A stretch of 64,000 nucleotides of DNA from Brevibacterium gallinarum (GTDB lineage Bacteria; Actinomycetota; Actinomycetes; Actinomycetales; Brevibacteriaceae): positions 336,430 through 400,429 of the forward strand of contig NZ_JACSPY010000001.1 of assembly GCF_014836885.1 (NCBI RefSeq). Reading direction: 5' to 3'. Below are positions 2,160 to 22,864 of the stretch, piece by piece; the first letter of the stretch is position 1, and every line of letters starts with the position of its first letter. The notes beneath the pieces were generated by a model. It searched no databases and was not told the origin of the DNA. It worked only from the letters and a program-made list of their open reading frames with translations. The translations under genes and the position numbers were made by a program.

Positions 2160-2294
2160 GGGCTGTGGGGCAGCGGGTCCAGGAGACCGATGAAGCCGGG
2201 CATCCAGAATCCTGCCAATGACGCAGCTCACTTTTTGTCACTGTCTGCCGAGTGATTCGGGGTAGCCGCCGCGCATGCTTGTTCATAGCAGTGA

Positions 2295-2303: not shown

Positions 2304-2344
2304 AGACGCGAAGGCGCGTCGGCACACGAAAAACAGGGGTGAGA

Positions 2345-4471: not shown

Positions 4472-4501
4472 GCCCGCGCCGAAACCAGAAGGAGACACGA
4501 C

Positions 4502-6514
4502 ATGACGGCAACCCCCACTGATTCGGGCTCGATGCTCTCGACCACCCCGCTGACCGGTGAGCAGCTCGCAGCCTACATCGCCGCCGAACCGATCAACCCG
4601 GCCGGCCGGCCCCGGCCCTACGAGCACGGCGGACGGCTCACCCCTGAGGGAACCGAGGTCGATCCGATCATCGTCGAGATCGTCGAAGGCACCCTCGCCA
4701 GCGTCGAAATGGAAGTCGAGACCGCGATCTCGAGGACCTCGCGCTCGCCGATGATCCGCGACGCCCACGACTTCCGCGCCGGCATCCACGACCGGCAGCT
4801 GCGCAAGCTCACCGGCCGGTCCTACTCCGCACTCGTCCACCCGATCGTGCGCGACTTCCCGATCGAGACGATGGAGGAAGGCGACGTCTTCTTCCACAAC
4901 GACGTCTACGAATCCGAAGGCGGCATCGGCCACCTGCCCGACCTGTGCGTCACTGTCCCGGTCTTCCACAACGGGGAGGTGGTGTGCTTCGTGCAGGCCT
5001 TCGGCCATCACGACGACATCGGCGGCGCCTGCCCCGGCTCGATGCCCTCGGGTGCGACGAGCGTGCACGAAGAGGGACTGGCCGTCCCGCCGATCAAGCT
5101 GTGGTCGCGCGGCGAACCCAACCGGGCCGCACTGCGCATCATGACCCGCAACTCGCGCATGCCCGACTCGCTGGCCGCCGACCTCGACGCCGAATGCTCC
5201 GCCTGCCTCATGGGTGCGCGCCGGCTCGCCGAGCTCTTCGCCCGCTACGGCCGCGACACCATCGAAGCGGCCTTCGACACCATCCTCGACAACACCACCG
5301 AGCTGTACCGCCGCGAGATCCTCTCGAAGATCCCCGACGGCCAGTACGTATGGGAGGACTACGCCGAACACGACGGCGTCGAGGACCCGAAGCTGCACAC
5401 CCAGCGCATCACCCTGACGAAGACCGCCACCGGGGGACCGGGTGACGGGCCCAGGCTCATCATCGACTTCACCGGCACCGCCGCCCAGGCGAGAGGGCCG
5501 ATCAACCACTGCGGCGACTACGTCGGCGGGAACTTCCTCAAGAAATGGCTCGCCCCGATCCTGCGCAACCTCGCCGACTCCCCGGAGCGGATGGGCGAAC
5601 TCGACGTCAACGAGGGCATCGTCCCGCTCATCGAGATGCGGTTCCCCGAGAAGGGCACCCTGCTGACCCCGATCTACCCGGGCCCGACGAACGCCCGCAC
5701 CTTCGTCATCCTGCGGCTGCTCGGCGTGCTCGCCGGGGTCGTCGCGAAGGCTGTCGACGGGAAGATGCCGGCAGATCAGGAGACGATCCGCTACACCGGC
5801 GTGTACGGCAAGGACCGCGACGGCAACGACTACCTCATGCGCGAGGTGCTCGGCGGCGGCTCGGGCGGCCGCTACTACGCCGACGGTGAGGACACCATCC
5901 ACGTCGTGCCCGACTCCCGGAACCTGCCCACCGAATTCACCGAATCGCGGTTCCCGTTCCGCGTCGAGCGGCTCGGACTCGCCGTCGACTCCGGCGGCGC
6001 TGGACGCTACCGCGGCGGGCTGGGCTACGAGAAGCACATCCACATGCTCAAGGACGCGAACTTCATGTCGATCGCCGACCGGTCGATCCTCGCCTGCTGG
6101 GGCGTCAAGGGCGGCAAGGCCGGCCGGCCGTTCCAGGTCACCATCGACCCCGGCGGGCCGAACGAACGCGAGATCGACGCGCTCGCCGATGCCGAACCGG
6201 TTCGGGCAGGGGAGACGATCCGCATCTGCACCACCGGAGGCGGCGGCTGGGGCGACCCGCTCGACCGTCCCCTCGACGAGGTCGAACGCGACCTGCGTTG
6301 GGGCAAGATCAGCATCGACGGGGCCCGCAGCGACTACGGCGTCATCGCCAGCGTCGACGACGGTGAGGTCACTGTCGACACGGCGGCCTCGACGCAGCTG
6401 CGGCAGCAGCTGCGCGAGAAGCGCACCGGCGAGGAGCCGTTCTTCGACCGCGGACCCGGGTACGCGCGCCTGGCCGGCGACGGCAGCGACGCACCTGACG
6501 TCGACTGGCTCTGA
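4502..6514 (+). CDS. hyuB: Hydantoinase/oxoprolinase B-type subunit
   Basis: 670-residue HyuB family protein, partner of HyuA in ATP-dependent opening of cyclic amides. The conserved N-terminal DPIIVEIVEGTL and the region around HHDDIGG (near residue 170) match the family, and a Gly-rich TTGGGGWGDPL lies near the C-terminus. ATG 4502 follows AAGGAG at seven bases, so this start is well supported. Carbamate kinase begins two bases after its stop, indicating translational coupling. HyuAB consumes one ATP per ring opened. The neighbouring kinase could return one ATP if the product is later split to carbamoyl phosphate. Confidence 0.9.
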   Translation: MTATPTDSGSMLSTTPLTGEQLAAYIAAEPINPAGRPRPYEHGGRLTPEGTEVDPIIVEIVEGTLASVEMEVETAISRTSRSPMIRDAHDFRAGIHDRQLRKLTGRSYSALVHPIVRDFPIETMEEGDVFFHNDVYESEGGIGHLPDLCVTVPVFHNGEVVCFVQAFGHHDDIGGACPGSMPSGATSVHEEGLAVPPIKLWSRGEPNRAALRIMTRNSRMPDSLAADLDAECSACLMGARRLAELFARYGRDTIEAAFDTILDNTTELYRREILSKIPDGQYVWEDYAEHDGVEDPKLHTQRITLTKTATGGPGDGPRLIIDFTGTAAQARGPINHCGDYVGGNFLKKWLAPILRNLADSPERMGELDVNEGIVPLIEMRFPEKGTLLTPIYPGPTNARTFVILRLLGVLAGVVAKAVDGKMPADQETIRYTGVYGKDRDGNDYLMREVLGGGSGGRYYADGEDTIHVVPDSRNLPTEFTESRFPFRVERLGLAVDSGGAGRYRGGLGYEKHIHMLKDANFMSIADRSILACWGVKGGKAGRPFQVTIDPGGPNEREIDALADAEPVRAGETIRICTTGGGGWGDPLDRPLDEVERDLRWGKISIDGARSDYGVIASVDDGEVTVDTAASTQLRQQLREKRTGEEPFFDRGPGYARLAGDGSDAPDVDWL

Positions 6515-6516
6515 GC

Positions 6517-7473
6517 ATGCGCGTGCTCATCGCCCTCGGCGGCAATGCGATGACCGCCCCCGACGGCTCATCCTCACCCGATGACCAGCGGGCGGCGATC
6601 GCGCAGGCCTGCGGGCACATCGCCGAGCTGCTGGCTGACGGCCACGAGGTCATCATCACCCACGGCAACGGCCCGCAGGTCGGCAACATCCTGCGCAAGA
6701 ACGAACTCGCCGCCGCAGAGCTGCCGCCGGTGTCGCTTGACTGGTGCGGCGCGCAGACCCAGGGCACGATCGGGTTCACGATCGTCAACCGGCTCGAACA
6801 GGAGCTCACCACCCGGGGCATGCACCGGCAGGTCGCCGCCGTCATCACCCGCACCCGGGTCGACGGCGACGACCCGGCGTTCACCGACCCGGTCAAACCG
6901 ATCGGCACCTACCGCAACGCAGCACACGCCGCCCAGATGCGCGCCCACGGGCAGGTGTGGAAGGACTTCGGCGCCCGCGGCTGGCGGCGCGTCGTGCCCT
7001 CCCCGCGGCCGCTGGAGATCCTGGAGACCCCGACGATCGCCACGCTCGTCGACGCCGGCTGGGTGGTCGTCGCCGCCGGCGGAGGCGGCATCCCGGTGGT
7101 CGCCGACGGGCCGGGCTGGAACGGCGTCGAAGCCGTCATCGACAAGGACCTCTCCGCCGCCCGGCTGGCCGCCGACCTCGACGTCGACCGGCTCGTCATC
7201 GCCACCGACGTCGAACACGCGATCATCGGCTACGGCACCGCGGACGAACAGCCGATCGGTGAGATCACCGCCGAGCAGATGCAGCGGCTCGCCGATGCCG
7301 GGCACTTCGCGTCTGGATCGATGGGCCCGAAAGTCGAGGCAGTCGTCGACTTCGCCGCGTCGGGCCGCGGCGTCGGCATCATCACCGCGCTCGCCGCCGT
7401 GCCGGTGGCCATCGCCGGAAGAACCGGCACGCGCGTCACGCCCGCCGCCGCCTCGAGAACGGCCAGCTCCTAG
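6517..7473 (+). CDS. arcC: Carbamate kinase
   Basis: 318-residue amino-acid-kinase-fold carbamate kinase. Motifs: ALGGNAM at the N-terminus, THGNGPQVG near residue 48, and a GGGGIPVV nucleotide loop near residue 190. It converts carbamoyl phosphate plus ADP to ATP, CO2 and ammonia. It is placed with AllF/AllG/AllH homologues, as AllK (YbcF) is in enterobacterial allantoin clusters, not with arginine deiminase genes; none are seen here. This supports a role in harvesting carbamoyl phosphate from oxalurate phosphorolysis. Start ATG 6517 lies two bases after hyuB. Confidence 0.92.
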   Translation: MRVLIALGGNAMTAPDGSSSPDDQRAAIAQACGHIAELLADGHEVIITHGNGPQVGNILRKNELAAAELPPVSLDWCGAQTQGTIGFTIVNRLEQELTTRGMHRQVAAVITRTRVDGDDPAFTDPVKPIGTYRNAAHAAQMRAHGQVWKDFGARGWRRVVPSPRPLEILETPTIATLVDAGWVVVAAGGGGIPVVADGPGWNGVEAVIDKDLSAARLAADLDVDRLVIATDVEHAIIGYGTADEQPIGEITAEQMQRLADAGHFASGSMGPKVEAVVDFAASGRGVGIITALAAVPVAIAGRTGTRVTPAAASRTASS

Positions 7474-7507
7474 ACTGGAGACAGGCCGCCTGGCTCAAGG
7501 AGGAACC

Positions 7508-8169
7508 GTGAGGCACGCCCCCAACAGCGACATCGCCGGCATCGTGCTCGCCGCCGGTGCCGGGTCGCGCCTCGGCGCGCCCAAAGGCCTGCTGCGCACC
7601 GCCTCCGGGCAGCCGGTCGTGGCCAGGCTGTGCGACCAGCTGACAGCCGCCGGGCTGGCCGAGATCGTCGTCGTCACCGGTGCCGCCGCCGAGGCGGTCG
7701 CCGCCGGAGTGCCGGCAGGCGCCCGGGTCGCCCACGCCCCGGACTGGGAAGACGGCCTGTCGGCCTCGCTGCGAGCCGGCCTGCGCGCTGTCGCCGACGC
7801 ACCTGCCGGCGAGCGGATCCGCGCCGTGGTCATCCTGCTCGCCGACGTCCCCGACATCACCGCAGCCGCCATCGAAGCCGTCATCGCCGCTGCCCGCGTG
7901 CAGACCATCGAGACGAGTCTCGTGCGGGCGATGTTCGGACAGCGTCCCGGCCACCCCGTCGTCATCGGATCACAGCACTGGCAGCAGGTCATCGACACGG
8001 CCACCGGGGACTCCGGCGCGAAGGCGGTCTTCGCCTCGGGCACGGTGTGCGCAGTCGACTGCAGCCACCTGTGCACCGGCGCCGACATCGACACTCCTGG
8101 GCAGCTGCAGGCCGCCGGCCTGCGGCTGCCGGAACTGCTGCCCGACGCACGCGCAGGGGAGGAGGGCCG

Positions 8170-8173
<4 letters not shown>
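7508..8173 (+). CDS. MobA-like NTP transferase, probable molybdopterin cytidylyltransferase
   Basis: 221-residue nucleotidyltransferase with the N-terminal signature GIVLAAGAGSRLGAPKGLL. This family includes MocA/MobA, which attach CMP or GMP to molybdopterin. Mo-hydroxylases of the xanthine dehydrogenase family use the cytosine dinucleotide cofactor in many bacteria, so a MocA-like role serving the nearby CoxL protein is likely. The GTG start at 7508 has a strong AAGGAGG upstream. An earlier in-frame opening exists inside the kinase gene and was rejected. The gene overlaps coxD by four bases. Confidence 0.8.
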
Positions 8174-9077
<904 letters not shown>

Positions 9078-9081
<4 letters not shown>

Positions 9082-10139
9082 CGATGACCGCAGTGCTCAC
9101 CGACTTCGCCCGCAGCCTCGCCCGTCACGGATACCCCGCCGACCCCGGCCGGCTGCACACCGCCGTGGCCGGACTCGGCGCCCTCGGAACGATCGAACGG
9201 CAGCATGTCTACACCGTCACCCGCGCCGCCTGGTGCACCACCGCTGAGCAGTGGGCGGACTTCAGCATCCACTTCGAGCGGTTCTTCTCCCGCCACCCGG
9301 CTGCCGCGGCCCCGCCGGACACCGACGTCGAGATCGACGTGCCTGAGGCGCTGCCCGGTGACGACGATACCGAAACCGGCCATCCCGAACCACAGGCTGC
9401 CGCAGCCTCGAAGGCCGCAGTGCTGCGCGAGACCGACATCGCCGAACTGCTGGAATCTGATGCCGCCGACGCCCGCGCCCAGCTGGCCGGTCTGCGCCTG
9501 AGCCCACCGCAGCGGCGCCGGCCGCGCTACCGGCGCGGACGCGCCGACCGCCTGCATGTGCGGCAGGCGCTGCGCGAACTGCTCGCGACCGGAGAGATCA
9601 CGAGCCTGCCGACGCAGGAGCGCCGCGAGGTGCCCCGCCCGATCGTCATCGTCCTCGACGTCTCGGCCAGCATGCAGCCCTTCCACACCACCCAGCTGGC
9701 CTTCGCAGCAGCCGCAGCGGAAGGCGGCCAGCACGTCAGCGTCTTCACCGCCGGGACCGCACTGACCGACGTCACCGCAGGCGTGCGCACCGCCCGGCCC
9801 GGCACGCGCAGCGGACAGATCCCCGACCTCGGCGGCGGCACCCGGCTCGGCGAGACCCTCCAGCAGCTGCTCGACCGGCACGCCGGCCGGCTGCGCGGAG
9901 CCACGCTCATCGTCATGTCCGACGGATGGGAAGACGGCGACACCGACGCTCTCACCACAGCCGCAGCCCGCGCCAGCCGCCTGTGCGCACGGTTCCTGTG
10001 GGTCAACCCGCGAGCCGGGCGCACCGGCTGGCAGCCCGACATCCGCGGCATCCGCGCGATCCGCCCGCACGTCGACGCGCTGCTGCCCGGCACCACCATC
10101 TCCGACTACTTCCGGCTCGCTGCCGTCGTCGCAGGGTGA
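9078..10139 (+). CDS. coxE: CoxE-type VWA domain protein
   Basis: 353-residue protein with a C-terminal von Willebrand A domain. The MIDAS motif DVSASM lies near residue 194 and a later SDGWEDGD segment completes the site. The region around residues 75-120 is Pro/Ala-rich. CoxE-like proteins pair with CoxD ATPases for maturation of molybdenum hydroxylases. Its ATG overlaps the coxD stop and xdhC begins five bases after its stop, so the three behave as one translational unit. Confidence 0.85.
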
Positions 10140-10144
10140 ACAGC

Positions 10145-11320
10145 ATGCGCGACATCGCCTCCGAGATCCTCGACCTGCTCACCGGTGACGAGCCCATGGC
10201 CGTGTGCACGATCATCCGCACCTGGTCCTCAGCACCCCGCCCGGCCGGGACCGCGATGGCGGTCACCGCCTCGGGACGGGCCATCGGGTCGCTGTCCGGC
10301 GGCTGCGTCGAAGGGGCTGTGCACGCCGCCGCCCAGCTCACCATCGACGACGGCCAGCCGCGCCTGGGCCGCTACGGCGTCTCCGATGACGAGGCCTTCA
10401 CCGTCGGCCTGGCCTGCGGCGGCCAGCTCGACGTGCTCATCCGGCGTGTCGATCCCACCGACACCGCCGACGCCGAGTCGCTGGCGGCAGTGTGCCGGCA
10501 GATCCTCGCCGACGAGCCGGCCGCCCTGCTCACCCGGATCCCGCTGGCCACTGACGAGCTCGGCGAGCCGACCGGGATGGAATACGTGCTCGCCCCGCCG
10601 GCCGGCCGCTGGCTGGCGATCACCGCACCCGAGGCGGCGGAACCGGCCGTGACAGGCTCGCTTGGCGACGGACAGCTCGACCGCTCCGTCGTCGACAGCG
10701 CCGTCGGGCTGCTGGCCGCCGGAACCACCCAGATCCGCGAGTACGGCGAGCACGGCGAACGCCTCGACAGCGACACCGCCGTACTCATCAGCGCCTTCTC
10801 CCGCAGACCCAGAATGCTCATCTTCGGGGCCATCGACTACGCCCGCGCACTCGCCGCGGCAGCGAAGCTCGTCGGCTACCACGTCACCGTCTGCGACGCC
10901 CGGCCCGTCTTCGCCACACCCGCCCGCTTCCCTGAAGCCGACGAGGTCGTCGTGTCCTGGCCGCACCGCTACCTGCAGGCTGAGATCGATGCCGGCCGGA
11001 TCGAATCGAGCACCGCGATCGCCGTGCTCACCCACGACCTGAAGTTCGATTTGCCGCTGCTGCAGGTCGCACTCGGCTGCCCAGCCGACTATGTCGGGGC
11101 GATGGGCAGCAGACGCACGAACGACCGGCGAATCGCAGCGCTGCGTGAAACTGGGGTGTCCGAGGAGCTCATCGACCGGCTCTACGCCCCGATCGGCCTC
11201 GACCTCGGCGCCCGCACCCCGGAGACCACCGCGATCTCGATCCTGGCTGAGATCACCCGGGAGCGGTGGCAGGCCAGCGGCGCGCCGCTGCGCGACACCA
11301 CCGGCCCGATCCACTCCTGA
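10145..11320 (+). CDS. xdhC: XdhC/CoxF family Mo-cofactor maturation protein
   Basis: 391-residue XdhC-family protein. The N-terminal domain contains GSLSGGCVEG near residue 50, with the family cysteine, and the C-terminal Rossmann domain contains GAMGSRRTNDRR. XdhC binds and helps sulfurate the molybdenum cofactor before insertion into xanthine dehydrogenase-type enzymes. ATG 10145 is chosen because AGGGTGA lies eight bases upstream. A GTG at 10136 overlapping the coxE stop is a possible alternative. Last gene of the hyuA operon; allFG converges on it, leaving 38 bases. Confidence 0.88.
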   Translation: MRDIASEILDLLTGDEPMAVCTIIRTWSSAPRPAGTAMAVTASGRAIGSLSGGCVEGAVHAAAQLTIDDGQPRLGRYGVSDDEAFTVGLACGGQLDVLIRRVDPTDTADAESLAAVCRQILADEPAALLTRIPLATDELGEPTGMEYVLAPPAGRWLAITAPEAAEPAVTGSLGDGQLDRSVVDSAVGLLAAGTTQIREYGEHGERLDSDTAVLISAFSRRPRMLIFGAIDYARALAAAAKLVGYHVTVCDARPVFATPARFPEADEVVVSWPHRYLQAEIDAGRIESSTAIAVLTHDLKFDLPLLQVALGCPADYVGAMGSRRTNDRRIAALRETGVSEELIDRLYAPIGLDLGARTPETTAISILAEITRERWQASGAPLRDTTGPIHS

Positions 11321-11358: not shown

Positions 11359-14300
11359 TCAGCCCTTCGCCACCGGTGTTTCCGCCGCCTCGGCGAGTGC
11401 CTCCATCGCGGATGTGAACGCCTGCTCAGGCGGATGCACGAGACCGGCACCGACCTGGCCGACACCGGCGACCCTGCCGGCCATGCCGGTGTTGATCTGC
11501 GGCAGCACACCGGTCCGGGCGACGGCGGTCGCATCGATGCCGGTCGGCACGCCGCGGAACTCCAGAATCGGGATCTGGTGCGATGGGTGCTCACCGAGGG
11601 TGATCTCATACATCTTCTGCGTCGTCTCGATCGCAAACGCCACATCAGCGCCGACAAGCCGCACGATCGCCGGGGCAGCAGCCATCGCGAACCCGCCGAT
11701 GCCGGCAGTCTCGGTGATCGCCGAGTCGCCGATGTCCGGGTTGGCGTCCTCGGGCCCGAAGGAGCCGAGGAACAGCCCTTCGGGCAGCTGCGCCGGTCCG
11801 GTGAACCAGGCATCGCCAGTGCCGGAGAGCTGGATGCCGAACTCGGTGCCGTTGCGGGCCATCGTGACGACGAGGGACGATCCGGGCACGTCCTTGGCTG
11901 CGGCGCAGGCGAGCTTGCAGGTGGGCATGACGATGTTGAGGGCGAAGTAGTCGTTGGCGCCGAGGAACCGGACGACCTCGGCGAGATCCTCCTGCGGGCG
12001 GTCCTGGGAGAAGAGATGGGGCATGATGTCGCGCAGGAACAGCAGCGTGCCGGTGCGGTTGCGGTTGTGGCCCTCATCGCCGGACTGCAGCATCTGCGAG
12101 ACATACGCCTTCGCATCGAGCGGGCCGCTGCTGGCCAGCGCCTCGGCCAAGACGGGTCCGAGCACATCGCGCATCCAGCGCAGCCGCGTGAGCACCTCCT
12201 CGCCGTTGGCGCCGTAGCGCAGCACCTTGCCCAGCCCCTCATTGAGCGAACAGTAGGCGCGGTTGCCGTGCACCGGGTCGTGCAGCTCCATCATCCACAT
12301 CGACGGGCTCACGACCCCGGCCATCGGCCCGACTGCCTCCCGGCTGTGACACGGCGCGAACGTGAACCGACCTGAGGCCAGTCCCTCTTCGGCCTCCTCG
12401 ATCGTGTCGACCAGTCCTTCGAACACGACTGCCCCGGTCAGCGCTCCGCGCATCGGCCCGGAAGCGTCCTCCCAGGCCAGCGGGGGACCGGCATGGAGGA
12501 ACTCGGTGTCAGCCAGGCCCAGGCATTCGCGGGCGGGGCGGACGGCGACGAGCTCGGCCCCGGCGGCGAGCATCCGCTCGATCGCCGTGCGGTTGGCGTC
12601 GGCGCGGCGCGGATCGGCCATGACCGTCTGCACTGCGGCAGCGCTGCCGAGCGGTGGGCGCCAGTCCACCTCGGTGACGGCGACCGCCTGCGCCTGCAGC
12701 TCCTGGGCGAACAGCGACAACCCAGCTGTCACGACGACCGGTTCAGCGGCCAGCAGCCCGCGCAGCGGCGCGCCGTCAGCAGCCGTGGTCGACGTGACGA
12801 CTCGGCCGCCGGTTCGGCCGTCGGTCTGCGTGGCGGTCTGCCCGCCAGTCTGCCCGCCGGTCCCAGGTCCCTGCGCGGCATCCGGCTCTGCAGCGTGCCC
12901 GAGGTGGTGGAGGGCTCGGCGGGTCGCGGCAGCATTCGAGGCGAACACCTCGGCGCCGGCTGCGGTGAGCGCCTCGACACTGGCGGAGAGTCCCTGCGGA
13001 TCCTCCTCGGTGCCGACGAGGGAGACGACGACCGGCAGCCGACGGCCGTACTCCTCCTGCGCGCGTGCGCGCACCCGTTCGATCGCCGCGGCCAGCGGCT
13101 CGACCGGCGTTGCATGCGCGCCGTAGCCGAGCACGAGGTCGAGCAGCACAACGCCGGCGCTGGCGCCGGTGCGCTCAAGGGCGTCGAGTCGCAGACTTGG
13201 GTCGATCATCGGATGGGCACGCCCTGTGGTCATCTCGTCATCACCGAAGTCGATGACGAACGACCCGCTCTCCGGCACGCTGCCGCCGCTGAGCTGCTCA
13301 GCCCCAGCCAGCGGGATGTTCGAGGGCACCGGCCCGAGCGCAGCGGAGGCGATGAGCATCGCCTCATCAGCCAGGGTGCCGCCGCAGAAGTATCCGCGCA
13401 GATCCCCGCCCCCGGCCTGCTGATCCGAGGTCTCCGGCAGCCACGACGGCCACTCAGGTGTCACCCCGCCGGCAGCGTGCAGCGCCGCTTCGACCGCGGC
13501 CGTCAGGTCCGGCCGGCCTGAGCCGAGCACCGCCCACGTCACCCCGACGCCGAGCTCACCGGCCAGCGCTGCGACCTCATCGACGACACCGGCATCGGCT
13601 GGCTTCGAGACGATGATGATGTGCTCGGTGGCCTCGTCAGCCGCCAGCGCCCGCAGCGCCTGCTTCGTCGACCGGCCGCCGACAGCCGCGCTCATATCCC
13701 GGCCGCCGGTGCCCAGCACATGACTGACCCCCTCGCCGGCGGCGCTGAGCAGCGTCATGACCTGCTGGGCACCGGTGCCGGAGGCTGCGACGATGCCGAA
13801 CCGGCCCGGCGGCACCTGATTGGCGAAGCCGAGCGCAGCCTGGGAGACGACGGCTGTGCCGCAGTCGGGTCCCATGACGATGACATCGGCTGAGGCCGCT
13901 GCATCCTTGAGCAGCACTTCGGACTCGACAGGCACATTGTCGGAGAACAGCATGACCGAACACCCGGCGGCGATCGCATCGAGTGCCTCCGTCGTCGCGT
14001 GCTCACCGGGCACGGAGATGAGAGCGAGGTTCGCCTCGGTTCTCTTCGCCGCCGAGCCCACGGTCAGCGCTGGGCTCTCGCCACCGGCACTGAGCCCGCC
14101 GCCGGTGGAGCGCAGCGCAGCCAGCTGCACATCGAGTTCGGCCACCGCGGCCTCCAACACCTCTGCATCAGCACACCGCAGAGCGATGACGAGGTCGTTC
14201 GGGCTCACCGCCGGGTCGATGTCGAAGTCGAGGCTGCGCATGAGGTCGAGGTTGAGCTCCGTGCCCATCCCGATGAGCGCGTCGGCGACGCCGTCGAGGT

Positions 14301-14379
14301 CCTTCACGCGAGCAGAGGCCTGCATGAGGCTGACGGAGTCGAAGTAGACACCGGATCGGATGTCAACGTGAGACAGCAC
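11359..14379 (-). CDS. AllF-AllG fusion (FdrA + DUF1116), oxamate carbamoyltransferase subunits
   Basis: 1006-residue protein joining two normally separate subunits. Residues 1 to about 490 are FdrA/AllF: a CoA-ligase-like fold with FSDNVP, MGPDCGT and the Gly-rich GTGGRD. Then comes a low-complexity Thr/Gly/Gln linker (about 493-535). Residues from about 535 are DUF1116/AllG, with CHSREAVGPMAG, NRAYCSLNEGLGK and SGDEGHNRNRTG. In enterobacteria FdrA, YlbE and YlbF together act as oxamate carbamoyltransferase (oxalurate + Pi to oxamate + carbamoyl phosphate). The GTG at 14379 is chosen over an ATG at 14547 because AAGGAG precedes it and homology begins there. The start lies inside the end of allH, so the two are translationally coupled. 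Confidence 0.85.
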   Translation of the reverse strand: MLSHVDIRSGVYFDSVSLMQASARVKDLDGVADALIGMGTELNLDLMRSLDFDIDPAVSPNDLVIALRCADAEVLEAAVAELDVQLAALRSTGGGLSAGGESPALTVGSAAKRTEANLALISVPGEHATTEALDAIAAGCSVMLFSDNVPVESEVLLKDAAASADVIVMGPDCGTAVVSQAALGFANQVPPGRFGIVAASGTGAQQVMTLLSAAGEGVSHVLGTGGRDMSAAVGGRSTKQALRALAADEATEHIIIVSKPADAGVVDEVAALAGELGVGVTWAVLGSGRPDLTAAVEAALHAAGGVTPEWPSWLPETSDQQAGGGDLRGYFCGGTLADEAMLIASAALGPVPSNIPLAGAEQLSGGSVPESGSFVIDFGDDEMTTGRAHPMIDPSLRLDALERTGASAGVVLLDLVLGYGAHATPVEPLAAAIERVRARAQEEYGRRLPVVVSLVGTEEDPQGLSASVEALTAAGAEVFASNAAATRRALHHLGHAAEPDAAQGPGTGGQTGGQTATQTDGRTGGRVVTSTTAADGAPLRGLLAAEPVVVTAGLSLFAQELQAQAVAVTEVDWRPPLGSAAAVQTVMADPRRADANRTAIERMLAAGAELVAVRPARECLGLADTEFLHAGPPLAWEDASGPMRGALTGAVVFEGLVDTIEEAEEGLASGRFTFAPCHSREAVGPMAGVVSPSMWMMELHDPVHGNRAYCSLNEGLGKVLRYGANGEEVLTRLRWMRDVLGPVLAEALASSGPLDAKAYVSQMLQSGDEGHNRNRTGTLLFLRDIMPHLFSQDRPQEDLAEVVRFLGANDYFALNIVMPTCKLACAAAKDVPGSSLVVTMARNGTEFGIQLSGTGDAWFTGPAQLPEGLFLGSFGPEDANPDIGDSAITETAGIGGFAMAAAPAIVRLVGADVAFAIETTQKMYEITLGEHPSHQIPILEFRGVPTGIDATAVARTGVLPQINTGMAGRVAGVGQVGAGLVHPPEQAFTSAMEALAEAAETPVAKG

Positions 14380-15349
14380 AGTCTTCTCCTTCTGTCGGGT
14401 CCGGCGATCCGCCGGCGGAGCGAGATGAGGGTCGGGAAAGCGCACGGCAGGTCGCCACGACACCGGCGCCGAGGTCGTAGCCGGACGTGTGCCCGATCGC
14501 ACCGAGGTGCTCGGCGAAGGCGGGCAGGTCACCGGCCTGGGCGGCACCGAGTGCCCTCTTCACCGGTGTCGTGCACCAGCCGTCGAGGGATGCCTCCAGC
14601 AGTGAGGCGGAGATCGCCGTCGTGGAGGCCAGATGCGGTGTGAGCGCTGCCCGCAGCTGGGCGAGAGCGCCCCACGCCGACTGCCAGCGCAGAGCCAGCG
14701 CGATACCGGAGAGCACATCATCACCGGAGGGTGTGAGTCCGGGACCGCGGCCGATGAGCGCCGCGACCCGCTCAGCCAGAGCTTGGTCGACCCGGCCGTA
14801 GCGAGACGCAGCGCCCCGGCTGCCGTTCAGCGCGGTGGCGACGATGCCCTCAGCACTGGCTTCAGCATCGGCGATCCCCGGCTGCAGCACGGCACGCACG
14901 GCAGCCAGATCGGGTGCCCTCCCACGGTGTGCGACCAGGTGCTTGTCGGGTTGACCGCAGCCGATCCCCAGACAAGGCACCCCGCTGATGCGCTGCGGCC
15001 GCCACACGCGCCTGATGCACAGCTCGGCTGCCGGCAGCAGCAGCCGGTCAGGTTCGACCTCGACCCGATCGCCGGTCCTGACACCGGTGGTGAAGACATC
15101 GGCTGGAACATGCGTGCGGATGGCCGTCGGCAGATCGTAGGCGCCCATCCCGATGACCGGGATGACGAGCGTGTGCGGCCCGGAAGGCGCTGTGAGGTCG
15201 GCAGGCGCTGTAACGTCGGCGGGTGCTGTGAGGCCGACAGATGCCTTGGGGCCGGCGGGTGCTGTGAGGTACAGGCCAGCCGCATGGATGCCGGCGACCG
15301 TCCATGCACGCTCAGGGGCGGCCAGCGGCGGCGTCACAGGGGACTTCAC
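14363..15349 (-). CDS. allH: DUF2877 protein, AllH-like subunit of oxamate carbamoyltransferase
   Basis: 328-residue DUF2877 (YlbF/AllH) protein. The conserved centre includes GRGPGLTPSGDDVLSG, the best family signature, near residues 198-213. It overlaps the allF-allG fusion start by 17 bases, so the two products are probably made together and form one complex. Residues 28-58 contain a repeated (L/V)TAPAD pattern not expected of the family, which looks like a repeat-driven insertion. The GTG start at 15349 has no clear Shine-Dalgarno sequence, so the N-terminus is uncertain. It is transcribed divergently from the PucR regulator; the two starts lie 74 bases apart. Confidence 0.8.
   Translation of the reverse strand: MKSPVTPPLAAPERAWTVAGIHAAGLYLTAPAGPKASVGLTAPADVTAPADLTAPSGPHTLVIPVIGMGAYDLPTAIRTHVPADVFTTGVRTGDRVEVEPDRLLLPAAELCIRRVWRPQRISGVPCLGIGCGQPDKHLVAHRGRAPDLAAVRAVLQPGIADAEASAEGIVATALNGSRGAASRYGRVDQALAERVAALIGRGPGLTPSGDDVLSGIALALRWQSAWGALAQLRAALTPHLASTTAISASLLEASLDGWCTTPVKRALGAAQAGDLPAFAEHLGAIGHTSGYDLGAGVVATCRALSRPSSRSAGGSPDPTEGEDCAVSR
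15176..15268 (-). repeat. Short coding repeats inside allH
   Basis: The sequence encodes four imperfect (L/V)TAPA or (L/V)TAPS units (residues 28-58 of the AllH-like protein), partly as repeats of 18-21 bp. Likely produced by local slippage or duplication. Confidence 0.6.
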
Positions 15350-15410
15350 CGCTGCACGACAACCGGGTCCGCGGATATGACGTGCATCTCACCAGCGTAG
15401 GGCTGACTGC

Positions 15411-15416
15411 TAGGGT
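15411..15416 (+). promoter_or_regulatory. -10 box of the pucR-type regulator gene
   Basis: TAGGGT lies seven bases before the regulator ATG at 15424, the geometry of a leaderless transcript. It sits between the divergent allH and regulator genes. Confidence 0.45.
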
Positions 15417-15423
15417 GGGGGAC

Positions 15424-17124
15424 ATGGCAAATGCCGATAATCATGAATCTCTGGCTCGGCAGAATCTGCCAGTCAGCGGGGGTGACGTCACCGTCCGCGA
15501 CGTCCTCGACCTGCCCTCCCTCACCGGTACCCGCGTGCTGGCCGGCGCCGACGGGCTCGAGCGCATCGTCTCGCGCGTCAACGTCATGGAAGTGCCCGAC
15601 ATCCTGCCGTGGGTGCGCGCCCAGGAGCTGGTCATCACCACCGGTTACCCGCTGCAGGATCAGCAGATCGACCTCTGCGATCTCGTGCGCCAGTTCGCCG
15701 ACCGAGAGCTGGCAGGCGTGGGCGTCAAACCCGGCCGCTATCTCCATGAGATCCCCGGCGAGGTGCTCACCGCAGCGGACTCCGCAGGCCTGCCGATCCT
15801 GCTGCTGCCCCACGGGGTCGGCTTCGACGAGATCATCCACGAGGTGCTCGGCACGGTGCTCGCCCGCAGGGAACAGGACCTGCAGCAGGCCGAGCAGATC
15901 CTCCACGAACTCGTCACCATCGTCGTCACCGGCGGAGAGCTCGACGAGGTCTGCAGCCGCATCGCCAGTCACGTCGAAGGCACTGTCGCCGTCACGACGA
16001 TGGACGGCCGGGTGATCGAGGTGGCCGGACAGCTGCCGCTGGCAGAGCTCCAGGAACTCGCCTGCTTCGATGTCGCCGGACGCTTCCATGTCGAGCAGAC
16101 TCGGGTCGGTGAGGTGCAGAAGGCCAACGGGCTCTACAGTCTGGCGGTGCGGATCCGCGGCGGTGCCCGCGACCTCGGGCGCCTCGTCCTCTTCACCGAC
16201 CATTCGATGAGCCACAGCCAGCAGCACGTCGTCGACCAGGCCTCAGCAGCCGCCGCCCTCGTGCTCACGAAGATGCACGCGATCTCGGCCGTTGAGAGCA
16301 AATACAAGGCTGACTTCGTCCACGATGTGCTGCGCGGCCGGATCGTGGCAGCCGACCGGATCCTGTCGCATGCGACCTCGCTGGGCTGGGACTTGGACCG
16401 TGAGCTCGTGGTCGTCGTCGCCGAATACGACGACACCGGCGAGCCCGTCGAGACGATGGAAAAGCAGTCCCTGCAGGAGCGCTTCGCCCGCGCCTGGACC
16501 TCGGCGGTCGCCCAGGACGACGCCGAGGCGGTGGTCGTCGGGGCAGGGGATGAGGTCACCGTCATCGCCGGTGTGGCGGCAGAGGAATCCGTCGAACGCA
16601 CCATCGCCCGCGTCGAACGCTGGGTCGGCGACGTGCACGGCGTCGGCGGCGGCGGCCGGCTGACCTTCTCCACCGGCATCAGCCGCATAGCAGCGGACCT
16701 CCACGCCCTGCCGGCCGCCTACCAGGAGGCACGCAAGGCCGTGGAGGTCGGCCGCAGACTCTACGGCGAGCAGGCGATCAGCCACTTCGACGCCCTCGGC
16801 GTCTTCCGGCTGCTGTCCCTCATCGACGATGAGGAGGAAGTGCGGGCCTTCATCTCCGACACCCTCGGGGTGCTCGCCGACCGGAGCGCCTCCTCCGCCG
16901 ACCTGCGCGAGACCCTGCGGGTGCTGCTGGACAAGAACCTCAACGTCGCCGAGACCGCCCGTGAGATGCACTTCCACTACAACTCGCTGCGCTACCGGAT
17001 CAGCAAGCTCGAGCGCATCCTCGGGCCCTTCATGACCGATGCCCGGCGGCGGCTGGCCATCCATCTGGCCCTGCAAGCGATGTACCTCACGGACCTGACA
17101 GCCGGAAAGCGCACACGCCTCTGA
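15424..17124 (+). CDS. PucR-family transcriptional regulator
   Basis: 566-residue PucR-type regulator. The N-terminal purine-catabolism regulatory domain spans about residues 25-150 (VRDVLDLPSLTGTRVLAG ... VRAQELVITTGYPL). A GGDEF-like middle follows, and a C-terminal helix-turn-helix contains NLNVAETAREMHFHYNSLRYR near residue 515. In Bacillus and actinobacteria such proteins control purine or allantoin catabolic genes in response to pathway intermediates. It sits in the centre of the island, divergent from allH and upstream of the permease, which makes it the obvious local regulator. ATG 15424 was chosen over an upstream GTG-type opening because of the adjacent -10 box. Confidence 0.88.
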   Translation: MANADNHESLARQNLPVSGGDVTVRDVLDLPSLTGTRVLAGADGLERIVSRVNVMEVPDILPWVRAQELVITTGYPLQDQQIDLCDLVRQFADRELAGVGVKPGRYLHEIPGEVLTAADSAGLPILLLPHGVGFDEIIHEVLGTVLARREQDLQQAEQILHELVTIVVTGGELDEVCSRIASHVEGTVAVTTMDGRVIEVAGQLPLAELQELACFDVAGRFHVEQTRVGEVQKANGLYSLAVRIRGGARDLGRLVLFTDHSMSHSQQHVVDQASAAAALVLTKMHAISAVESKYKADFVHDVLRGRIVAADRILSHATSLGWDLDRELVVVVAEYDDTGEPVETMEKQSLQERFARAWTSAVAQDDAEAVVVGAGDEVTVIAGVAAEESVERTIARVERWVGDVHGVGGGGRLTFSTGISRIAADLHALPAAYQEARKAVEVGRRLYGEQAISHFDALGVFRLLSLIDDEEEVRAFISDTLGVLADRSASSADLRETLRVLLDKNLNVAETAREMHFHYNSLRYRISKLERILGPFMTDARRRLAIHLALQAMYLTDLTAGKRTRL

Positions 17125-17308: not shown

Positions 17309-18814
17309 ATGAGTTTCGGATGGACGCTGCACGGTGACGGGAAGAGTCCCGCACCGGGCAAGGCCGTAGCCCCTTATGAGCGCCTGACCTGGCCGCGCAC
17401 GGTCGGACTCGGCATCCAGCACGTCGTGGCGATGTTCGGCGCGACGTTCGTCTTCCCGGTCATCATGGGCCTGAATCCCCAGCTGGCGGTCATGATGAGC
17501 GGTGTCGCCACGATCATCTTCCTGCTCATGGTCAACGGAAAGATCCCCAGCTATCTCGGCACCTCCGCTGCCTTCGTCGGCGGTGTCGCGGCTGTCACCG
17601 CCCAAGGCGGCACACCCCAGCAGGTGACCGGCGCGATCATGATCGCCGGTGTCGTCCTGGCTGCCTGCGGCATCTTCATCCATTTCATGGGCGCTGCCGC
17701 GCTGACGAAGATCATGCCGCCGGTGGTCACCGGCGCGGTCGTCATGCTCATCGGCTTCAACCTCGCCCCGGTCGTCGCGAATGTGTACTGGCCGCAGGAC
17801 CAGTGGATCGCCTTCATCGTCATGTTCGTCATCATCGTCATGTCGGTGGCCCTGCGCGGATTCCTCGGCCGTATCGCCGTCTTCCTCGGCCTGGCCTTCG
17901 GCTATGCGCTGTCCTGGATCTTCGATCTCGTCTTCGGCCCGATCACGGCCTTCAACGCCGCCACCGGAGAAGTCGACACCCATATGCGCGTCGACTGGTC
18001 CGGCGTCGTCGACGCCCCGTGGTTCGGTCTGCCGCCGGCCACCGACAACGCCGCAGGGGTGGTCGGCATGCACCTGCCGGAGTTCAACGCCGCCTTCATC
18101 ATCCTCATGCTCCCGGCCGTCATCGCGCTCATCGCCGAGAACGTCGGCCACGTCAAGGCCGTGGAGGAGATGACGAAGACCCCGCTGGACAAGTACATGG
18201 GCCGGGCGCTGACCGCCGACGGTGTCGCCACCGCGGTGGCCACCTCGGTCGGCGGCTCACCGACGACCACCTACGCTGAGAACATCGGCGTCATGGCCTC
18301 GACCCGCGTCTACTCGACAGCGGCCTACTACGTCGCCGCGCTCGTGGCGATCGTCTTCGGCCTGTCACCGAAGTTCGGCGCGGTCATCTCCGCAGCACCC
18401 GGCGGTGTGCTCGCCGGCATCACCGTCGTGCTCTACGGCATGATCGGCCTGCTCGGCGCCAAGATCTGGACGGAGAACAAGGTCGACTTCTCCAACCCGC
18501 TCAACATGGTCCCGGTGGCCGCCGGCATCATCATCGCCATCGGCGACATCGGACTGAAGGTGACCGAGACGTTCACCCTGGCCGGCATCGCATTGGGTAC
18601 GATCGTCGTCCTGGTGATGTACCACTTCTGCCGGATCATCGCACCCGCAGAGCTGCGGGAGGCGGCCGACAGCGCAGGAGGCGCACTCATCACCGTCGGT
18701 GAACCCGGCTCGCACAGCCTCGAAGAGCTCGGCCTCGAAGACGACCACGGCCAGCGTCGCCGCGGCCGGAGAGCCGACCACGATCCACACAGACCGGAGG
18801 GCAGCAGGGAATGA
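17309..18814 (+). CDS. NCS2 (NAT) family permease, uracil-permease-like
   Basis: 501-residue polytopic membrane protein of the nucleobase-ascorbate transporter family; proton-coupled uptake across the cytoplasmic membrane is expected. The NAT signature reads ENIGVMASTR near residue 325. Its first position is Glu, as in the UraA/uracil branch, not Gln as in typical xanthine/urate carriers. The C-terminal tail after about residue 450 is hydrophilic and charged. The start has GGGGGAG upstream. coxM overlaps its stop by four bases, tying transport to the Mo-hydroxylase. The substrate is probably a uracil-like or hydantoin-like ring; this is inference. Confidence 0.87.
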   Translation: MSFGWTLHGDGKSPAPGKAVAPYERLTWPRTVGLGIQHVVAMFGATFVFPVIMGLNPQLAVMMSGVATIIFLLMVNGKIPSYLGTSAAFVGGVAAVTAQGGTPQQVTGAIMIAGVVLAACGIFIHFMGAAALTKIMPPVVTGAVVMLIGFNLAPVVANVYWPQDQWIAFIVMFVIIVMSVALRGFLGRIAVFLGLAFGYALSWIFDLVFGPITAFNAATGEVDTHMRVDWSGVVDAPWFGLPPATDNAAGVVGMHLPEFNAAFIILMLPAVIALIAENVGHVKAVEEMTKTPLDKYMGRALTADGVATAVATSVGGSPTTTYAENIGVMASTRVYSTAAYYVAALVAIVFGLSPKFGAVISAAPGGVLAGITVVLYGMIGLLGAKIWTENKVDFSNPLNMVPVAAGIIIAIGDIGLKVTETFTLAGIALGTIVVLVMYHFCRIIAPAELREAADSAGGALITVGEPGSHSLEELGLEDDHGQRRRGRRADHDPHRPEGSRE

Positions 18815-19707
18815 AGCCAGCGGCTTTCGCCTACCACCGCGCAGCATCAGTCGACCACTGCCTCGAACTGCTGACCCAGCACGGGGCTGAGGCGAAGCTG
18901 CTGGCAGGCGGCCAGAGCCTCATCCCGGTGCTGAATATGCGCCTGGCCGCCCCCGCCCACCTCATCGACATCTCCCGGCTGAGCGAACTGGGCTCCATCG
19001 AGATCACCGATGCCTGCGTGCGCGTCGGCGCTGCCGTCACCCACGCAGAGCTCGAAGCCGATGACAGTGCCTATGCGGCGCTGCCGATCCTGCGTCAGGC
19101 GCTGGTCAACGTCGCGCACCCGGCGATCCGCAATCGCGGCACCACTGTCGGCTCGATCGCCCATGCCGACCCGAACGGAGAGATGCCGGCCGTCCTCGCC
19201 CTCACCGGCGGCACCGCCCACGCAGTCTCCTCATCCGGGTCCCGGCAGATCGACGCGGCTGAGCTCTGCATCGGCCCGCTGGAGACCTGCCTGGAAGCCG
19301 ATGAGCTCATCACCCATGTCGACTTCAACCGGTTCCCGCCCGGCACCCGCACCGGGTTCACCGAACTCGCCCGCCGCTCAGGCGACTACGCGCTTTCCGG
19401 TGTGGCCATGGCGCTGACCGCCGAGGAGTCGACGATCACCGGGCTGCGCCTGTCCTTCGTCTCCGTCACCGACCTGCCCGAGGTCCTCGACATGAGCGCG
19501 CAGGTCACCGGGATGGAGCTGAAAGCCACCACCGACCTGTGCGCGGCCGTGACCGAGGCGGTCGAGACCGCCATCGACCCTGCCGGTGACATCCACGCCA
19601 CCGCCGACTACCGCCGCCACATCACCAAGGTCATGGCCCGCAGACTGGCCGTCGAACTCAGCTGCCGGCCACCGCAGCCGCCGCCGGCAGACGAACCGGA
19701 CAGGTGA
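18811..19707 (+). CDS. coxM: Mo-hydroxylase FAD-binding subunit (CoxM/XdhB type)
   Basis: 298-residue FAD-binding medium subunit. Two flavin motifs are visible: LLAGGQSLIP near residue 31 and the second loop RNRGTTVGSIAHADPNGEMP near residues 108-127. It passes electrons from the [2Fe-2S] subunit to an acceptor. The ATG overlaps the permease stop (ATGA). The M-S-L gene order that follows is the usual order of CO-dehydrogenase-like and other Mo-hydroxylase operons. Confidence 0.9.
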   Translation: MKPAAFAYHRAASVDHCLELLTQHGAEAKLLAGGQSLIPVLNMRLAAPAHLIDISRLSELGSIEITDACVRVGAAVTHAELEADDSAYAALPILRQALVNVAHPAIRNRGTTVGSIAHADPNGEMPAVLALTGGTAHAVSSSGSRQIDAAELCIGPLETCLEADELITHVDFNRFPPGTRTGFTELARRSGDYALSGVAMALTAEESTITGLRLSFVSVTDLPEVLDMSAQVTGMELKATTDLCAAVTEAVETAIDPAGDIHATADYRRHITKVMARRLAVELSCRPPQPPPADEPDR

Positions 19708-19811: not shown

Positions 19812-20417
19812 GTGAGCAGTCTGGCACACGCCGAGGGAACCGAGCCGGAACCGCACCGCACCGTGCGGCTGATGGTCAACGGCACTGTACACGAGATCTC
19901 CGTCGCCGACCGCCGGCTGCTCTCCGACGCCCTGCGCCACGACATCGGGCTGACCGGCACCCACGTCGGCTGCGAACACGGAGTGTGCGGCGCCTGCACC
20001 ATCCAGGTCGACGGCAAGCCGATGCGCTCCTGCCTCATGCTTGTCGTCGCCGCCGAAGGCAGCGACATCCGCACCGTCGAAGGCATCGGCAATGACCCCG
20101 AGCATCCCTCCGATGTGCAGCAGGCGTTCATCGACTGCCACGGCCTGCAGTGCGGCTTCTGCACCCCCGGGTTCATCACCACCATCGACGCGTTCATCGA
20201 CGAGAACCCCGACCCCACAGCCGAGGAGGCTCGCGAGGCGATCTCCGGGAACCTGTGCCGCTGCACCGGCTACCAGAACATCGTCGCCTCCGTGCTGCGG
20301 GCAGCCGAACTACGCAGGGCCGGATCCGCACCCGAGGCGGCCGCCGCCTCGGGCACGGGCGACGGGGCACCCGGCACGCACGGGGCACCCGGCACGGACG
20401 GGGGAGGACAGCGATGA
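19812..20417 (+). CDS. coxS: Mo-hydroxylase [2Fe-2S] subunit (CoxS type)
   Basis: 201-residue iron-sulfur subunit. The plant-type cluster motif GCEHGVCGAC starts near residue 53, and the second cluster is bound by CGFCTPGF and CRCTGYQNI. The core ends near residue 165. The rest is an unusual Ala/Gly/Pro-rich tail containing an 18-base tandem repeat (GAPGT units) and an inverted repeat. The GTG start has AAGGAG eight bases upstream. Its stop overlaps the coxL start. Confidence 0.92.
   Translation: MSSLAHAEGTEPEPHRTVRLMVNGTVHEISVADRRLLSDALRHDIGLTGTHVGCEHGVCGACTIQVDGKPMRSCLMLVVAAEGSDIRTVEGIGNDPEHPSDVQQAFIDCHGLQCGFCTPGFITTIDAFIDENPDPTAEEAREAISGNLCRCTGYQNIVASVLRAAELRRAGSAPEAAAASGTGDGAPGTHGAPGTDGGGQR
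20331..20353. repeat. Inverted repeat in the coxS tail
   Basis: CCCGAGGCGG (20331-20340) and CCGCCTCGGG (20344-20353) form a perfect 10-bp stem with a 3-base spacer inside the coxS tail. It resembles two head-to-head copies of the core of a dispersed repeat seen elsewhere in the window. Confidence 0.5.
20362..20397 (+). repeat. 18-bp tandem repeat in coxS
   Basis: Two copies of an 18-base unit (ACGGGGCACCCGGCACG plus one variable base) encode GAPGTH/GAPGTD at the C-terminus of CoxS. Confidence 0.7.
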
Positions 20418-22864
20418 CGACACGGATGTTCGGGCAGAAGATCGCCCGCAAGGAGGACCCGCGGCTGGTGACCGGCAACGGCTCCTATGTCGATGACCTG
20501 TCCTCGCCCCACACGCTGGCCGCGGCGTTCGTGCGCAGCCCGCACGCCCATGCCACGATCCTCGACATCGACGTCTCCGGCGCGCTTGACGTCGACGGCG
20601 TCTACGCCGTGTGGACGCACGAGGATCTGCCCGGCGCGGCCGGTGAACGGCTGCCGATGCTGCTGCCGCACCCCTCGCTCATCGCGCCGAAGACCGGGTA
20701 CGCGCTCGCCAAGGACGACGTCAACCACGTCGGAGAGCCGATCGCCATGGTCATCGCTGAGAATCGCTACATCGCCGAAGACGCCGCCAGTGCCGTGCAC
20801 GTCGACTACGAGTACCTGCCGGCCGTCGTCGGGGTCGCGACCTCCCGGAGGGCCGAGCATGCCGTGCATGCCGATGTCGCCGACAACATCGCCGCCCACA
20901 GCATCGATGAGATCGGCGCGGTCGACGAGGCGATGGCCGGTGCCCCGCATGTGCTCGAGATCGACCTCGACATCGAGCGCAGCGCCTGCATGCCGATGGA
21001 GGGCAAGGGCGTGCTCGCCCGCTGGAACCGTCACGACGAGAGCATGATCGTGTACTCCTCGACGCAGACCTCGACCGGACTGCGGGCGGCACTGGCTGCG
21101 AAGCTGGAGATGCCGCTGACGAAGATGGAGGTCATCACTCCTGATGTGGGCGGAGGATTCGGCGTCAAGATCAACCACCCCTGGCCCGAGGAGGTCTGCG
21201 TGGCCGCCGCGGCCCGGGCACTGGACCGGGAGATCGCCTGGACCGAGGACCGCCGCGAGCACTTCATCTCCTCCGCCCATGAGCGCCAGCAGCTCCAGCA
21301 GGTGCGCATCGGCTTCGACGACGAGGGCAAGATCCACGCCCTCGACGTGAAGTTCTGGCACGACAACGGCGCCTATCTGCCCTACGGGGTGATCCCGCCG
21401 CTCAACACCGCCACCCACGTGCTCGGGCCGTACGTCATCCGCAACTACCGCTGCGAATGGTGGTCGCTGTACACCAACACCGTCATCGTCACCCCCTACC
21501 GCGGGGCTGGGCGCCCACAGGGCGTGTACATGATGGAACGGGCGATGGACGCGGTGGCCGATGCGCTCGGCCGCGACCGCACCGAGGTGCGCGAGACCAA
21601 CTTCGTACGCGAGTTCCCGCACCCGATCGGCCTCGTCCTCCAGGACGGACGCGAGGGCATCTACGACTCCGGTGACTTCCCGGCCTCGATGGCCAAGCTC
21701 AAGGAGCTCATCGGCTGGGACGACTTCGCCGCCTACCGCGCGAAAGCCGCCGCCGAGGGCCGCAGGGTCGGCATCGGCGTGGCCTGCTATGTCGAAGGCA
21801 CCGGCGCCGGACCCTATGAGGGCGGGCACATCGAAGTCGAGACCTCCGGGCGGGTCAACGTGTGGACCGGCCTGACGACCCAGGGGCAGGCGCACGCGAC
21901 CGTATTCGCCCAGATCGTCGCCGATGAGCTCGGTGTGCCGATCGACCGGGTCAACGTCATCACCGGTGACACCCGCAAGACCCCCTACTCGGTGGGCACG
22001 TGGGGTTCGCGCGGGGCGGTCATGAGCGGCAACGCCGTGCACCTGACGGCCAAGAAGCTCAAGCAGAAGGCGCTGACGATCGCCGGGCGCTCACTCGAAG
22101 TCGATCCAGCCGACCTGGAGATCGTCGACGGGATCGTGCAGGTCAAAGGCGATCCCTCAGCCTCGATCCCGCTCGAGGTCATCTCAGTGATGTCCAACCC
22201 GCTGCGCTACGCCTTCGACGACGCCGCCAAGGCCGCCACCCAGTTCGGGATGCCCAGCGATGAGTCGAAGCCGCCGATGCTACCCGGTGAGTCACCGGGA
22301 CTGGAGGAACGGGACTTCTTCTCCCCGCAGCGGACCACCTTCGCCTCCGGCATGCACGCCGCGATCGTCGAAACCGACCCGGAAACCGCCGACATCACGG
22401 TGTTGCGCTACTGTGTCGTCCACGACTGCGGCAAGATGATCAACCCGCTCGTCGTCGAAGGACAGGTGCTCGGCGGCGTCGCACAGGGCATCGCCGGGGC
22501 CCTGTACGAGAAGATGGCCTATGACGAGACCGGCCAGCTGCTCAACGCCTCCTTCATGGACTTCCTCATGCCGTTCGCCACCGAGATCCCGCACGTCGAA
22601 ACCGACCACCTGGAGACCCCGAGCCCGCTCAACCCGCTCGGCATCAAGGGCGCCGGTGAGGCCGGAACGATCCCCGGCACCTCGGTCATCGCCTCGGCGA
22701 TCGAAGACGCCGAGGGCTTCCCCATCACCCGCATGCCGATCTCCCCATCGGAGCTGTGGGAGCTGCGCGAAAAGCACGCCGGCGGCCACTGGCCCTCCCT
22801 GCAGCACCCGGCACGCGTGCCGGAGACCGACGACGCACAAGCAGAAGAAAAGGTGACCCGATGA
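20414..22864 (+). CDS. coxL: Mo-hydroxylase large catalytic subunit, form II CoxL/XdhA type
   Basis: 816-residue molybdopterin-binding subunit of the xanthine dehydrogenase family. The active-site loop reads PYRGAGR (residues 361-367), the form II pattern, not the AYXCSFR loop with a copper-binding Cys that defines true aerobic CO dehydrogenase. The catalytic Glu motif KGAGEAGT gives Glu749. It should therefore hydroxylate an organic substrate, probably a heterocycle given its neighbours. The frame is open from 20150, but ATG 20414 has GGAGG upstream and overlaps the coxS stop. coxG overlaps its own end by four bases. Confidence 0.9.
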   Translation: MTTRMFGQKIARKEDPRLVTGNGSYVDDLSSPHTLAAAFVRSPHAHATILDIDVSGALDVDGVYAVWTHEDLPGAAGERLPMLLPHPSLIAPKTGYALAKDDVNHVGEPIAMVIAENRYIAEDAASAVHVDYEYLPAVVGVATSRRAEHAVHADVADNIAAHSIDEIGAVDEAMAGAPHVLEIDLDIERSACMPMEGKGVLARWNRHDESMIVYSSTQTSTGLRAALAAKLEMPLTKMEVITPDVGGGFGVKINHPWPEEVCVAAAARALDREIAWTEDRREHFISSAHERQQLQQVRIGFDDEGKIHALDVKFWHDNGAYLPYGVIPPLNTATHVLGPYVIRNYRCEWWSLYTNTVIVTPYRGAGRPQGVYMMERAMDAVADALGRDRTEVRETNFVREFPHPIGLVLQDGREGIYDSGDFPASMAKLKELIGWDDFAAYRAKAAAEGRRVGIGVACYVEGTGAGPYEGGHIEVETSGRVNVWTGLTTQGQAHATVFAQIVADELGVPIDRVNVITGDTRKTPYSVGTWGSRGAVMSGNAVHLTAKKLKQKALTIAGRSLEVDPADLEIVDGIVQVKGDPSASIPLEVISVMSNPLRYAFDDAAKAATQFGMPSDESKPPMLPGESPGLEERDFFSPQRTTFASGMHAAIVETDPETADITVLRYCVVHDCGKMINPLVVEGQVLGGVAQGIAGALYEKMAYDETGQLLNASFMDFLMPFATEIPHVETDHLETPSPLNPLGIKGAGEAGTIPGTSVIASAIEDAEGFPITRMPISPSELWELREKHAGGHWPSLQHPARVPETDDAQAEEKVTR

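Follow-up and report, generated by a model that had tools for sequence, protein, structure and literature searches.

How do two subunits of a carbamoyltransferase, encoded separately in Escherichia coli, come to be one polypeptide in Brevibacterium gallinarum, and on which substrate would such an enzyme act? Oxamate carbamoyltransferase activity has been measured for E. coli AllFGH, an assembly whose composition is uncertain, only homodimers having been predicted; a tag on AllH alone lost AllF and AllG, and AllG was kept when AllF was tagged as well (PMC11326118). The stretch of 64,000 nucleotides analysed here, which we call the window, contains a frame in which AllF (FdrA) and AllG (DUF1116) are joined.

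Results

The fused gene (AllFG) occupies positions 11359..14379 of the minus strand and is a single open frame of 1006 codons, with a GTG start at 14379, a TGA stop and no internal stop. Pfam places CoA_binding at residues 195-271, Ligase_CoA at 331-489 and AllG at 673-886. The first two (PF02629 and PF00549) form the architecture that identifies AllF/FdrA, and the NCBIfam FdrA model PRK06091 spans residues 5-586 (E 3e-111) with 372.6 bits, under its cut-off of 433. AllG is identified by PF06545, with 301.9 bits against a gathering score of 27 (E 3e-90). The same operon encodes AllH (DUF2877; 14363..15349, minus strand, exact start uncertain), which matches PF11392 with 69.9 bits against 25 (E 3.6e-19). 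Translational coupling of AllH to AllFG, as proposed in the initial annotation, is plausible, because the 3' end of AllH overlaps the start of AllFG by 17 nt and a strong ribosome-binding site, AGAAGGAG, precedes the GTG by 6 nt. A longer frame, reading to 14547, can be drawn; it would cross AllH, and the ribosome-binding site belongs to the GTG at 14379.

The reading of AllF and AllG as one 1006-residue polypeptide is upheld. The coordinates in the initial annotation are correct; it gave no strand. Third-position G+C is 0.80-0.96 over the linker and falls to 0.71 only in the final short block, so that no frameshift signature was seen in the linker along this measure. A frameshift or sequencing error as the cause of the fusion was discarded, given that the same single frame occurs in 13 Brevibacterium genomes: the protein of B. 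luteolum is 94% identical and in one frame, and 11 more genomes behave likewise. Six in-frame internal start codons were tested between residues 550 and 603 and none had a Shine-Dalgarno match; for this reason, separate synthesis of AllG from inside the frame is unlikely. Joining F and G would thus fix their ratio at 1:1, a claim of the initial annotation that is plausible for these two parts, AllH remaining a free chain.

Four regions can be distinguished along the chain, all on the minus strand. The AllF/FdrA part, with the CoA_binding and Ligase_CoA domains, comprises residues 1-492 (12904..14379) and matches the crystal structure of E. coli FdrA, 3dmy, with Z 35.0. It is followed by a disordered Gly/Thr/Ala/Gln linker, residues 493-535 (12775..12903), by a profile-defined shuttling module, residues 545-590 (12610..12747), and by the AllG core, residues 592-1006 (11362..12606), which superimposes on the DUF1116 protein of Enterococcus faecalis, 3clq, over residues 588-1000 with Z 57.3 and rmsd 1.5 Å. 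The Thr/Gly/Gln-rich linker that had been noticed around residues 493-535 is real in composition (G10 T9 A7 Q4 of the 42 residues 494-535) and in AlphaFold2 confidence, with pLDDT <50 for residues 501-535. The AlphaFold2 model of the whole chain has a pLDDT of 90.3 and a pTM of 0.85, the latter describing one chain of an enzyme that probably forms higher oligomers together with AllH. Residues 545-590 are well folded in it (pLDDT ~96). In a second run, on residues 318-592, the pLDDT of the module was ~60, with only ~19 rows covering it, and the match of this model to 3dmy stopped at the Ligase_CoA domain. AlphaFold2 input rows were taken from the window and genome loci, leaving out those of E. 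coli and plasmids. Both 3dmy and 3clq are single subunits, whereas AllFG holds F and G in one chain; to our knowledge, there is no structure of a complex or of a fused F-G protein.

The module consists of 45 residues between the F and G cores, with the pattern V..GL.LFA..L..Q...V..V.W.PP.G. E. coli K-12 contains both ways of dividing the chain: AllF (555 residues) carries the module as a C-terminal tail and AllG (419) begins straight with its core, whereas YahF (515) has no tail and the module forms the N-terminus of YahG (472). At a profile cut-off of >=15 bits (F and G frames scored 15-60 and other frames almost all <10), the module was located at the head of G in 106, at the tail of F in 2 and in the middle of a fusion in 18 of the 126 loci with adjacent F and G; each had one copy, never two and never none. 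It was absent from 14 of the 31 AllG genes that have no neighbouring F. Across these sequences, the gene boundary has moved over the module between subfamilies, the order F core-module-G core being constant. This is independent evidence that the C-terminus of AllF and the N-terminus of AllG are neighbours in the enzyme, and F and G may form one body in which the module sits where they join or close by. Among the archaeal loci (L019-L022), AllG is without the module; in three of them, L020-L022, AllF is encoded on the other strand and likewise has none.

In overlapping samples of Actinomycetota, AllG (PF06545) was present in 14 of 59 relatives, 45 of 396 genomes of the order, 89 of 395 of the class and 49 of 396 of the phylum. 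The locus set comprised 157 unique AllG loci (from genomes, E. coli and plasmid; a sample heavy in Actinomycetota), with F directly upstream in 126, of which 18 (14%) were fused. Every one of the 13 AllG-bearing Brevibacterium genomes, the window's included, has the fusion, in comparison with 5 of the 113 adjacent loci outside the genus. The search for fusions across Actinomycetota that the initial annotation had called for has thus been made, and the fused form is not the common one. It is not unique to Brevibacterium either: five more fusions were found in three other families. L067 and L068 belong to two other genera of one family of the same order, L185 to a genus of family f105, and L117 and L118 to two genera of family f56, which lies outside the class. 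Two trees built from the concatenated F and G cores place every fused group within or next to unfused genes, and starred branches force all four of the label changes that the fusion requires. These trees indicate that the fusion has arisen on at least four separate occasions from adjacent, separately translated genes; in the Brevibacterium lineage it is fixed, and overall it has appeared repeatedly without being the prevailing form. Taken with the intervening module and the one-chain pTM of 0.85, the recurrence sustains the earlier suggestion that AllF and AllG associate physically. Other long frames were not counted as fusions: in G968 (1658), G816 (1380), G236 (1233) and G083 (1046) the reading frames of F and G differ, and in L055 (frame of 1309) and L056 (1350), where AllH seemed to lie within the fusion, AllH is in a separate overlapping frame. 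Descriptions of AllF-AllG fusions were absent from the literature matches listed.

The F+G tree has a single deep split, with 100% local support (100 SH-aLRT in a smaller tree) and long branches. One side comprises E. coli AllFG, L075 and the f56 fusions, and the other YahFG and the window protein; E. coli YahFG is far from the window clade, so that affinity to YahFG here says no more than that the window protein lies off the AllFG side. Grouping with E. coli AllFG rather than YahFG, as expected of an oxalurate-type enzyme, was not observed. The gene order at the window locus is H-F-G, that of yahEFG. With these two features, and a clade tied to barbiturase and not to allantoin genes, the oxalurate assignment of the initial annotation is not supported.

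Like the window locus, E. coli AllFGH (FdrA-YlbE-YlbF) has homologous F, G and H, a linked carbamate kinase and predicted carbamoyl-phosphate chemistry. It differs in having three separate genes in the order F-G-H-K, the module on the tail of AllF, a place on the other side of the deepest split and a clade without association with barbiturase. The YahE-YahF-YahG-YahI set shares with the window the order H-F-G, a module at the head of G, a carbamate kinase and the side of the split, although its genes are separate and it has an amidohydrolase, YahJ, nearby and no barbiturase. This locus (L164, yahEFG-yahI-yahJ) is a second AllFGH-like set in K-12, with carbamate kinase and amidohydrolase.

On the plus strand, before the AllFG gene, the window encodes HyuA and HyuB of the ATP-dependent hydantoinase/oxoprolinase family (2252..6514; HyuA 2252-4471, HyuB 4502-6514), a carbamate kinase (6517..7473) and proteins for molybdenum-enzyme maturation (7500..11320: MobA-like, MoxR-like AAA, CoxE-like VWA and XdhC-like). 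The kinase matches TIGR00746 (E 6e-102) with 340.8 bits, under the equivalog cut-off of 358, and exceeds the cut-off of PRK12352. HyuA/HyuB and carbamate kinase adjoin AllFG at every Brevibacterium locus; a ring-opener that needs ATP, acting ahead of the carbamoyltransferase, would use the ATP that the kinase returns. Divergent from AllH-AllFG is a conserved neighbour, a PucR-type regulator (15304..17124, plus strand, true start probably downstream of 15304), followed on the same strand by an NCS2 nucleobase permease (17309..18814; best NCBIfam match RutG, under cut-off), the FAD (CoxM-like, 18811..19707), 2Fe-2S (CoxS-like, 19812..20417) and large (CoxL-like, 20414..22864; ORF 20150-22864, start approximate) subunits of a molybdenum hydroxylase, and a CoxG-like protein (22756..23565). 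PucR, NCS2 and the molybdenum hydroxylase also adjoin unfused relatives of AllFG.

All 20 genomes tested have a carbamate kinase on the AllG contig, at a distance of 5-43 kb in 19 (5.2 kb from AllFG in the window genome) and of 121 kb in one, a linkage that supports the carbamoyltransferase role proposed at the outset. Of the 396 genomes of the order, 30 have the barbiturase family, PF09663, and each of these 30 is also one of the 45 with AllG (Fisher p 3e-34, shared ancestry ignored; members of the same clade do not count as independent observations). The family is present in 79 of 79 main-clade AllFG genomes outside Brevibacterium (G812 has just a fragment, where a contig ends) and in none of the 33 genomes with AllG of other clades. 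Carbamate kinase directly adjoins the PF09663 gene in 16 of 16 genomes compared, and in two islands examined in full the kinase is directly followed by the PF09663 ring-opening amidohydrolase. The protein of the window genome (G000:C34:182839-183933) scores 581 bits to 5hwe versus 317 to the best cyanuric acid hydrolase, and that of G407 scores 670 versus 319; both proteins, like 5hwe, have Asn at the site of the conserved Arg of cyanuric acid hydrolases. The role of this Arg has been described, with glutamine in the barbiturase subgroup there (PMC4051656). From gene content across genomes, the clade travels with barbiturase, NCS2 permease, PucR regulator, three-subunit molybdenum hydroxylase and carbamate kinase. 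No paper joining barbiturase with carbamate kinase was found in the literature searched.

Within Brevibacterium, barbiturase accompanies the AllFG fusion in 3 of the 13 genomes and is missing from 10. In the window genome it is on another contig (C34) and not in the AllFG cluster, with a second NCS2-type permease adjoining it (L194 5153-6541). In G003 it is in the AllFG cluster, directly after CoxG and on the same strand, and an NCS2-type permease is also beside it (L195 7899-9395). The simplest history would be loss or replacement of barbiturase within the genus, because the two deepest branches (window/B. luteolum, and G003) and all outgroups keep it. Four barbiturase-less genomes have a gene of ~475 aa after CoxG, at the position of the G003 barbiturase (L198 14199-15623; L199 7515-9035; L200 5053-6525; L201 13455-14879); three of the products are Amidase (PF01425) and the fourth is amidase-sized. 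It is possible that an amidase displaced barbiturase as the ring- or amide-opening enzyme.

Discussion

We propose that AllFG, with AllH, is a single-chain F-G form of the AllFGH-type carbamoyltransferase that acts on ureidomalonate to form carbamoyl phosphate, a reading to which we give a probability of about 0.6. AllFG and AllH would phosphorolyse an acylurea, H2N-CO-NH-CO-R, to carbamoyl phosphate and an amide. Like oxalurate, ureidomalonate is an N-carbamoyl amide of a dicarboxylic half-acid; it is a natural candidate substrate because the two are one CH2 apart. Molybdenum hydroxylase is assumed from family context to oxidise uracil or thymine; barbiturase would then open barbiturate to ureidomalonate, which most likely would be split into malonamate and carbamoyl phosphate, the latter allowing carbamate kinase to regain one ATP. 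The product of barbiturase is ureidomalonate (3-oxo-3-ureidopropanoate), which ureidomalonase hydrolyses to urea and malonate (PMC3758960). The oxidative pyrimidine pathway of Rhodococcus (uracil dehydrogenase, barbiturase, ureidomalonase) shares the 5hwe-like barbiturase, the nucleobase permease and the molybdenum hydroxylase, in or linked to the cluster, and differs in its last step, hydrolysis to urea and malonate, for which a phosphorolytic step with recovery of ATP may stand in here. With confidence only a little better than even, this could be extended to a previously undescribed, energy-conserving oxidative pyrimidine branch, widespread in Actinomycetota, and to AllFGH-type enzymes as acylurea carbamoyltransferases (for oxalurate, ureidomalonate and perhaps biuret) with a sliding F/G boundary and repeated fusion.

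A fused oxamate (oxalurate) carbamoyltransferase of allantoin or purine breakdown would agree with the only characterised member of the family, E. coli AllFGH (PMC11326118), with the PucR-type regulator of the cluster and with the uricase of the window genome. It is nonetheless unlikely, given that the fully supported deepest split separates the window protein from E. coli AllFG, that the clade members G407, G240, G341, G040 and G003 have AllFG and no uricase, that barbiturase marks the clade, and that gene order and module position are those of yahEFG, not of allFGH. For the window clade ureidomalonate is, on present sequence evidence, the better hypothesis. With uricase present in the window genome, purine-derived ureides may also be substrates. 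The current annotation, "acyl-CoA synthetase FdrA", would imply an ADP-forming enzyme of that kind, a reading to which the Ligase_CoA and CoA_binding domains and the similarity of residues 100-303 to succinyl-CoA synthetase alpha (Z up to 18) lend themselves; we consider it highly improbable, as carbamoyltransferase activity has been measured for the FdrA-type family in E. coli and AllG, AllH and carbamate kinase recur as partners.

The same chemistry could also be directed at another acylurea or ureido acid delivered by HyuAB or an amidase, such as biuret or an N-carbamoyl amide. HyuA/HyuB, as a possible second ring-opener, and carbamate kinase are found at every Brevibacterium AllFG locus, barbiturase is lacking in 10 of the 13 genomes, and the conjugative plasmid pSR8 of Aminobacter sp. 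SR38 encodes fdrA and DUF1116 with a TrzD-type cyanuric acid hydrolase, whose product there would be biuret, and arcC (carbamate kinase). We regard this as rather doubtful, though less so than oxalurate, since barbiturase is retained by the deepest branches and the outgroups, and its loss from the derived species is the simpler account. On the plasmid, the four genes stand in a row (L166 4427-9520), which suggests biuret as a third acylurea substrate, possibly split by a phosphorolytic route.

If ureidomalonate is the substrate, the scheme of pyrimidine breakdown in actinobacteria would change, and the link of the clade with barbiturase and carbamate kinase supplies a concrete candidate substrate for a widespread family whose present annotation is acyl-CoA synthetase together with uncharacterised domains. 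For structural work on the AllF/AllG/AllH assembly, the naturally fused F-G chain offers a construct that is ready to use, and a module assigned to F by one operon and to G by another would mark the meeting point of the two. Isolated copies of AllG also occur: a Methylocystis plasmid (L168 5956-7374) carries a lone DUF1116 gene with the module and no F nearby, adjoining an MSMEG_0572/Sll0783 nitrogen-starvation gene. One genome of family f22 (G1149) has five AllG genes, which suggests several paralogous substrates.
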